Origin: Blastomussa wellsi | Taxonomy: Eukaryota > Cnidaria > Anthozoa > Scleractinia > Plerogyridae | DNA length: 64,000 nt | Assembly: GCA_947652115.1 (NCBI GenBank) | Contig: OX393561.1 | Location: 41,420,163-41,484,162, forward strand | Direction of reading: 5' to 3' | Part shown: piece after piece, positions 1-5,421 of the stretch | How the letters are laid out: every line of letters starts with the position of its first letter | Position numbering within the stretch: the stretch's first letter is position 1 | Notes under the pieces: model-generated | Database searches by the model: none | What the model was told of the DNA's origin: nothing | Seen by the model: the letters and a program-made list of their open reading frames with translations, nothing else | Position numbers and translations under genes: made by a program

Positions 1-135
1 TAATATATATCGACGATTAATAATTTTACGAAAAAATCGATCCAAAGCTTCGGACTGCACCCGCCATGTTGCTCTTTCATCGCGGGAGCTGAAACGGTCA
101 GCGGATTGAGATGTGACGTCTGATCGTGATGACAA
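1..135 (+). repeat. Left terminal inverted repeat (partial)
   Basis: Inverted match to 5212-5421, with shared blocks at 34-47 and 87-105. A TGACGTC site lies at 114-120, and the opposite repeat has the full palindrome TGACGTCA at 5229-5236. The + strand gene starts 97 bp inside it, so the repeat is the likely promoter. Confidence 0.85.
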
Positions 136-231
136 AGCAAAGGGTTGCGTGTCGCTTCGCCCTTGTTTTGCATGAATCGTTTAGCGAGCTGAAGCATGTT
201 TTTTTAGCTAGTTTAGTCCCATTCGCTCAAA

Positions 232-1721
232 ATGTCTGACGACGAGAACTCCTCGCATTCAGACCAATCAAGTCCGTCAATTGACGACGAAAATGTGCCC
301 GGAAACGTGATTCTACCGTACCAGTTCGAACCAGAGTTTTCTTCCAGCGAAGAAGGTGTGGAAGAAGAAGAATTAGAAGAGCATCAACACGAGGACGAAA
401 ATTCTCGTACCAGAAATCTAGACTGGTAAGAGTTTCTAGATTTATGTGCTATCTTAACAATCCAATTTAACCGGTCCGTAGAAGCGAACCATGAATAATT
501 AAACGGCGTTTAATGTTTTGGAGGTGCTGTGAAGATCAAACACTCGCGCTCAAGAAAATTATTGTAAACAATAAAAGAATAAAGTTCACTCTTGTATGTT
601 TTTGTTCGCTTTATTCATAGCTTTATACATTCTTCAGTGTGATCGCACTAGCATTTAGGAAGGCAATATCCACTGCTATGCTATATTTTTGACGTTACTA
701 AACCAGTTTAAAATCACTTTCTTGGAGTGGAAACAGGCGATTGTACATTTTTATCGAGATTCTATAATGTTGAATCCCTAATTTCCTATCTACAACCCAA
801 TATACTCCATATTTCTTGTAGCACCGCAGCAAGATTATGAAACAGCTTTCTAAGCTATCCTACTTTTTAAAAAAGGAACGATTGCCATCGTTACCTCTGA
901 AACGAAACAAATAACTGTTAATTTCGTTATTATTCGGAACCTGTATTTGTTTTGTTCTAGTAATGACAAACTGTGCAGTGATGGGGCTTGCAAATGGATC
1001 TGGCTGTTATTTAGAGCTCAGAAAAGGCGAATGGGAGACTATTTTTTTTTTATCGCAATCAGAACGAAAAAACCATGTAATTTCAGATTCAATTTTGTTA
1101 TGCTTCTACTAAAGGATAGGTTTGCCGCCACCTAAATTAAATTGTAAAGAAAGTATTACTGACAGAACCTGTTGAAAACCTAACTAGGCCGGATCAGTCT
1201 TAAACATTCAATAACAAAGAACCTTCTAAGCTAACCTGAAAAGTTTGGGGTAGGTTGCTTAGTGTGCAATAAATCCAAGTCAAACAAAGCTTATTTACTT
1301 TAGGTGTACATGTGGAAATTGCCAAATACTGAACAGAAACGAGGAATGTACATGCTGTTCAGAGTTTCCTCAAATGTGTGACAAAAACAGGGAGGCAGTA
1401 GAGATGGGGGAGGTTGCTGACACCCCAGTTTGTATCACTCAGCATCCTGGTTTCCAAGCTGTTTGTCTTAACAGATGGGTACTGCAGACAGCCTGGTACC
1501 AATATAAGCAGCAATATTCGCAGTCGTATGAAGGTCCTCAAGATAAACTGAACAGGCACATAGCCTATCGTCAACTTGTCAGATGGTGCTGGGGTGTTCT
1601 TGGCAAAGAGATAAGAGTCCCTTTGCCATCATGTGCAGTGTGCTGCATAAGAGCACACTTTCCTCCACCAGGACTTGAAGATGACTTTCAATTTGAGGGT
1701 TTCCACTTTCCAGATGAATAA
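232..1721 (+). CDS. P2X7 C-terminal (ballast/zinc-cysteine) domain protein, two exons, transposon-borne
   Basis: Exon 1 is 232-425 (donor GTAAGA at 426) and exon 2 is 1304-1721 (acceptor TTTACTTTAG). The join completes a Trp codon and gives 203 residues with no stop. Residues 1-60 are acidic and Ser/Glu-rich and probably disordered. From the junction come WCTCGNC, a CTCC cluster, HPGFQAVCLNRWVLQTAW, NRHIAYRQLVRWCWG and LPSCAVCCIRAHFP. This is the arrangement of the zinc-coordinating C-terminal domain of vertebrate P2X7 receptors, but there is no channel or membrane segment. In P2X7 this cytosolic domain binds zinc and guanine nucleotide; the role of standalone copies is unknown. A poly(A) signal AATAAA lies at 1822-1827. 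The gene sits inside the same inverted repeats as the transposase and converges on it, so it may be an accessory transposon protein or cargo. Confidence 0.85.
426..1303 (+). other. Intron of the P2X7-C-domain gene
   Basis: 878 bp AT-rich intron with GTAAGA donor and TTTAG acceptor. An AATAAA lies near 580 and could allow early polyadenylation of exon 1. No other coding signal is convincing. Confidence 0.75.
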
Positions 1722-5116: not shown

Positions 5117-5211
5117 TATTACTATTCCACAGCGAGATTATATGGCAACAAAACGACATAAATATTTTATGAGCTGAGGTTTTGCGATTGAAAAGCCCGC
5201 GAACCTCGCGC

Positions 5212-5421
5212 AATTGTGTTTCACGATATGACGTCAATCGACGTTCCGCTGACCGTTTCAGCTACCGCATTCCAAATCAAGATGGCGGGTAATTCACGGA
5301 ACTTTGGATCGATTTTTTTTATAAAATTATTTCGCGTAGGCAAGATTTATGCCAATATAGGGACTCCAGGTAATATAATTGTTGATATGAAATTCTCTTA
5401 AAATAGGCCTAAGTTCCCCTT
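5212..5421 (-). repeat. Right terminal inverted repeat
   Basis: Inverted match to the left end; contains a full CRE-like TGACGTCA at 5229-5236 and lies about 100 bp upstream of the transposase start at 5116. It ends at 5421 against TTAA. Confidence 0.85.

Follow-up and report, generated by a model that had tools for sequence, protein, structure and literature searches.

The window analysed here, a stretch of 64,000 nucleotides from Blastomussa wellsi (GCA_947652115.1, contig OX393561.1), carries at its left-hand end two convergent genes enclosed by a single pair of inverted repeats: on the minus strand, a gene of about 800 codons for a THAP/DDE transposase and, on the plus strand, a gene for a protein of 203 codons with the C-terminal (ballast) domain of P2X7. 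A first-pass annotation of this DNA had proposed precisely such an arrangement, a Kolobok transposon in which the THAP transposase is accompanied by a P2X7-C gene, and the repeats, genes and domains are all borne out by our analysis. Kolobok transposons of the Kol0 lineage encode a transposase together with a protein named ‘KolX’ (Kojima and Bao, Mob DNA 2022, PMC9587614), the name that we use here for the second protein. We consider positions 1-5420 to be, very probably, a Kol0-like DNA transposon of the Kolobok superfamily, near-complete and with both of its reading frames open.

The first exon of the transposase gene (4769-5116, minus strand) codes for a THAP DNA-binding domain with an AIPSVF box (Pfam THAP, E 1.4e-19; 71 bits, cut-off 23.9), so that the protein has at its N-terminus a domain described as usual for Kolobok transposases in the available text of PMC6004289. 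The second exon, an open frame at 2142-4196 on the minus strand, encodes the DDE core. Here, motifs matched by eye follow one another in the order GDGRCDSPG (starting at 3179), which holds the first D, TDRH (2981), with the second D, the DxxH motif YDVWH (2918) and GELEVYH (2543), which likely holds the third acidic residue; a C/DxxH motif between the second D and the E is characteristic of the Kolobok DDE domain. The THAP finger, GDGRCDSPG, TDRH and YDVWH had already been picked out by the first reading of the sequence, and all are present in that order. As a possible counterpart of the zinc finger that Kolobok transposases have between C/DxxH and the last E, a cluster of Cys and His residues can be seen in the translation. 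The sole Pfam match in the exon-2 frame was a sub-threshold one to a MULE transposase (E 0.084). A sequence search of exon 2 against solved structures returned no credible relative; its single match at E 0.55, to a phospholipase, was taken as chance.

When the two transposase exons are joined (5116-4769 to 4196-2142), they encode 800 amino acids in which the only stop is the final one. Six GT/AG pairs were tried for this intron, and since three of them preserve the reading frame to its end (giving 798, 800 and 802 residues), the exact splice join is uncertain. In addition, a repeat search identified three copies of a repeat of about 50 bp on the minus strand (4170-4220, 4289-4339 and 4545-4595), which lie around and within the intron, so that the acceptor region of exon 2 may be duplicated.

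The KolX gene likewise consists of two exons on the plus strand. Exon 1 (232-425), which runs from an ATG at 232 to a GT donor at 426, encodes an acidic, serine-rich N-terminal part. Exon 2 (1304-1721), which follows an AG acceptor at 1302-1303 and includes the stop codon, encodes nearly the whole of the zinc-coordinating (ballast) domain, beginning at the Cys residue that comes first after Trp65. Joined at this GT/AG intron, the exons give a protein of 203 amino acids; the earlier claim of intact splice joins thus stands for KolX, while for the transposase it is the open frame of 800 residues that stands and not an exact join.

The open frame that holds KolX exon 2 (1263-1721) matches the Pfam family P2RX7_C over frame residues 56-136 (E 6.7e-12; 46.2 bits against a gathering score of 23.5), a match that spans only profile positions 105-184 of 192. 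Compared with residues 473-594 of rat P2X7 (6u9v), the whole of KolX gave a whole-sequence E-value of 8.3e-4 and a value of 0.0043 for the best stretch alone, which is marginal by itself. Among 177,635 distinct solved sequences, two reached E <= 0.001 for KolX, and both of them were P2X7.

The alignment to rat P2X7 was also read against the cysteine clusters published for P2X7. In the first cysteine cluster (PxWCxCx2C in P2X7), the sequence LDWCTCGNC of KolX aligns to PDWCQCGNC of the rat protein, which confirms the WCTCGNC protein of the first-pass annotation; the cysteines and the W are kept and the P is not. In the second cluster (LCCRx3GxCITTS/T), CIT is aligned and rat C498 and C499 fall opposite an E and a V, with KolX cysteines 80, 82, 83 and 90 lying in an insertion adjacent to this part of the alignment. 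In the third cluster ((L/I/V)PSC(C/S)x3IRx2(F/Y)Px5Y(S/T)G), KolX keeps LPSC, IR and FP (LPSCAVCCIRAHFP), has an A at the C/S position and ends in FEG rather than Y(S/T)G. Overall, KolX cysteines 66, 68, 71, 108 and 175 stand opposite rat C477, C479, C482, C506 and C572, while rat C498, C499, C548 and C573 have no Cys opposite them, other KolX cysteines being found nearby. WCxCxxC, CIT and LPSC...IRxxFP are features that KolX shares with the P2X7 ballast domain (or ZCD) and with Nanor. Among the GDP-contact residues of rat P2X7 given in PMC7016195, the equivalents of R546, H547 and R578 are kept in KolX and those of R574 and K583 are lost; Rump et al. (PMC7016195, in the text available) report that invertebrate ZCDs keep only R546 and R578. 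KolX differs further from P2X7 in standing alone, without a channel part. A single-sequence structure model of exon 2 had a mean pLDDT of 39.4, too poor for the ballast fold to be read from it. Judged by sequence, KolX is a homologue of the P2X7 ballast domain.

The terminal repeats were identified by local alignment and BLAST. The reverse complement of the left end (3-160, plus strand) aligns to positions 5199-5350 (plus strand) with a score of 118; the best of 500 shuffles scored 35, and windows moved stepwise along the remainder of the 64 kb scored 37 at most. BLAST recovered a core in which 19-129 pairs with 5331-5221 (78.9% over 114 columns, E ~9e-17), and, within the window at E <= 0.001, each of the repeats matched only itself and the other. 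A left repeat near the start of the window had been set beforehand as a test of the interpretation; its inner part is present, beginning at about base 3, and, judging by the right end, the outermost 70 bp or so would fall to the left of the window. Repeats matching over some 210 bp had been claimed. What we find is about 155 bp of paired sequence of moderate identity, rather than 210 bp of close match, with the right end running on for a further 70 bp to a TTAA. The longest identical block common to the two repeats (19 nt; 87-105, with its partner at 5245-5263) includes the palindrome GCTGA-N5-TCAGC and is a candidate transposase binding site; the second-longest block has 17 nt (31-47 and 5302-5318).

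The location of KolX between these repeats bears on whether its association with the transposase could be fortuitous, either as a host gene captured by chance by this one element or as a mere neighbour. The idea of a neighbouring host gene was rejected on account of the location inside the repeats. Although a single copy is all that is seen here, as chance capture would have it, only 72 bp separate the KolX ATG (232) from the point where the left repeat stops on its inner side (160), the gene ends 420 bp from the converging transposase gene, and the same pairing has been published for the Kol0 lineage (PMC9587614). We therefore find a chance association scarcely credible.

At its right-hand side, the element ends exactly, with its last base at 5420 followed by a TTAA at 5421-5424 (TTAA|AGGGG...). 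The first reading had proposed a TTAA at this end, which is confirmed and forms the insertion junction, and its end coordinate was correct to one base. A TTAA target site is a Kolobok feature, and the terminus, which reads AG... inward from the TTAA, follows at this end the 5'-RR...YY-3' rule of Kolobok elements. The outermost 70 bp (5351-5420, plus strand) begin, inward from the TTAA, with AGGGGAACTTAGG, and their first nine bases, AGGGGAACT, are the same as those at the left end of the frog Kolobok copy Tr2, as listed in the available text of PMC6004289.

The junction is placed by the sequence into which the element has inserted. Positions 5421-5766 (plus strand) belong to a palindromic repeat that is about 80% identical to 53188-53507 and lacks here the outer part of its left arm. 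An uninterrupted relative at 53070-53504 carries on beyond the position that corresponds to the junction TTAA, through the remaining left arm, until it reaches its own TTAA, and in both copies the opposite arm continues in the same way; this indicates that the Kolobok inserted into the left arm of the repeat at a TTAA. Since the uninterrupted copy is bounded on each side by TTAA (53070-53073 and 53501-53504) and starts with AGTGCACC, this hairpin-forming repeat of about 430 bp is itself probably a Kolobok-type MITE. A partial copy of it is also found at 63467-63572. That the neighbour is of the TTAA kind, and that nothing in the window pairs with the outer 70 bp of the right end, might suggest that the TTAA belongs to the palindromic repeat only and that the boundary of the element lies elsewhere than at 5420. 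However, the other copy of the repeat, as well as its own opposite arm, runs some 115-120 bp past the equivalent point, marking the junction as an interruption, and the sequence just inside it is the AGGGGAACT of a frog Kolobok end. A boundary other than 5420 is therefore very improbable.

We went on to compare the element with named systems. The Kol0 lineage, represented by Kolobok-1_XT (PMC9587614), shares with it a DDE transposase paired with KolX, the homology of KolX to the ballast domain, a TTAA target and a 5'-RR terminus, and a comparison of these features, made by description, shows no difference of kind. The assignment to Kol0 rests on the KolX gene pair, read against the text of PMC9587614 rather than against a KolX sequence, and in those terms the element has the ballast-domain gene of the lineage; we accordingly speak of a Kol0-like element which, as far as is testable, is an ordinary Kol0-like Kolobok. 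The Xenopus Kolobok elements known as XKol (PMC6004289) share the THAP domain, DDE core, AG termini and TTAA, as well as the nine terminal bases of Tr2, but differ in that a KolX-like second gene is not named for them, and ‘P2X’ is absent from the main text of that source, so far as it was available.

In our reading, the transposase would bind the terminal repeats through its THAP domain, and its DDE site would cut the element out and insert it at TTAA. The convergent second gene would supply an accessory protein, KolX, with a zinc-coordinating domain that is a homologue of the P2X7 ballast. Within the Kol0-like reading we lean towards a part in transposition as an accessory scaffold or binding partner; most likely, it would take the form of a zinc-stabilised scaffold or of a partner that binds nucleic acid or the transposase, with the acidic N-terminal part making the contacts.

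The base composition of the element is uneven. CpG is depleted most strongly, for the whole window, in its interior (1201-4500), with CpG-rich ends and a normal right flank. In 300-base bins, the observed/expected CpG ratio is 1.56 at 1-300, 0.87-0.88 at 601-1200, 0.08-0.49 from 1201 to 4500, 1.0 at 4501-5100 and 1.67 at 5101-5400, and the first two bins of the right flank stand at 1.01 and 1.04. Taken by part, the ratio is 1.61 for the left repeat and leader, 1.38 for KolX exon 1, 0.86 for the KolX intron, 0.19 for KolX exon 2, 0.26 for the 420 bp between the genes, 0.29 for transposase exon 2, 0.62 for the transposase intron, 1.03 for the THAP exon and 1.64 for the right repeat region, against references of 0.97 for the rest of the window and 0.87 for nine host open frames taken together. 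The three lowest of these parts (KolX exon 2, the intergenic stretch and transposase exon 2) show an excess of TpG+CpA (1.43-1.54), and, among 310 overlapping segments of 2,055 bases, the 14 lowest in CpG start at 401-3001. Codon choice was discarded as the only cause: the 420 bp that separate the stop codons of the two genes are depleted too.

As an argument from base composition, this is what would be expected if the interior, but not the ends, had long been methylated in the germline, and it resembles gene-body methylation with spared promoters. In cnidarians, a host group that the WSC-like, astacin and F5/8 type C frames of the window would also suggest, methylation is reported to act on transposons, and most of all on the youngest (PMC8857917, in the text available). 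The pattern raises the question of whether this is a co-opted host locus that is no longer mobile, in which the transposase and KolX are expressed as host genes from promoters in the old terminal repeats. Both frames are open despite a CpG-poor interior (0.19, 0.26 and 0.29, versus 1.61 and 1.64 in the repeat regions), the two repeats share just 79% identity in their core, and there are precedents in the domesticated Kolobok transposases reported in the available text of PMC6004289 and in Nanor, reported as a likely domesticated KolX (PMC9587614). Yet the element retains its catalytic motifs, both repeats and the right TTAA junction; the same CpG pattern would be expected in every copy of a mobile family under long methylation; and in frog Kolobok copies, too, the left end differs from the right (PMC6004289, available text). 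On balance we consider co-option of this locus unlikely, and a mobile element the better reading. A broader version would have the transposase and KolX kept together as expressed, body-methylated germline genes with unmethylated promoters in the terminal repeats, whether as a co-opted pair or as a family under gene-like methylation, and we hold this to be doubtful, with some small chance of being right. If it were true of a transposon family, that family would persist under gene-like rather than silencing-like methylation, and the parts spared would be precisely those termini to which the transposase has to bind.

The first-pass annotation had further argued that a mobile element carrying the ballast domain would explain both the spread of the domain and its fusion to a P2X channel. 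This is supported, as the published conclusion of PMC9587614, in which KolX is described as sharing the cytoplasmic ballast fold of P2X7 and P2X7 is traced to the fusion of a P2X4-like gene with KolX; the interpretation is supported yet not new, because Kojima and Bao (2022) reached the same conclusion. The pairing of transposase and KolX is given there for the Kol0 lineage, not for Blastomussa wellsi. Stand-alone ZCD/ballast domains across animals had been found by Rump et al. (2020; PMC7016195), in the available main text of which ‘transpos’ does not occur. In our literature search, KolX was named nowhere besides PMC9587614, and no second report linking P2X7 to Kolobok was found; PMC9319628 was considered as one and rejected, since its available text names Kolobok once and P2X7 only in the title of a reference. 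The element-borne origin of the P2X7 tail is already known, having been in print since 2022; had the link been new, it would have explained that origin. The present copy does add a detail of gene structure: a single terminal exon with a stop encodes nearly the whole zinc domain, and splice capture would therefore be a simple route to exon 13 of P2X7. The element is also useful for testing the role of KolX, being a near-complete Kol0-like copy in which both frames are open and the right junction is exact.

Searches for further copies gave only self-matches in the window (tblastn of KolX, the transposase and THAP parts, E <= 0.01). In contig collections, KolX exon 2 gave six pattern stretches in viral contigs (none confirmed), and transposase exon 2 gave none in viral contigs and seven in genome contigs (none confirmed); these collections consist of viral and prokaryotic sequence and may not include the genome from which the window comes, and such null results are not informative about animal genomes. 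No tandem repeats were found in a search of positions 1-8000. Elsewhere in the window, all on the minus strand, we noted an F5/8 type C domain exon at 6606-6824 (Pfam E 5.3e-7), an astacin metalloprotease exon at 19616-20008 (Pfam E 6.7e-15) and, at 48191-62718, nine open frames whose cysteine motifs are related, with a GCYKD-like start and mostly a GKGG-like end. One of three of these frames scanned matches Pfam WSC with an E-value of 6.4e-5, below the cut-off, and the nine probably represent exons from an extracellular WSC-like gene or from a cluster of such genes.
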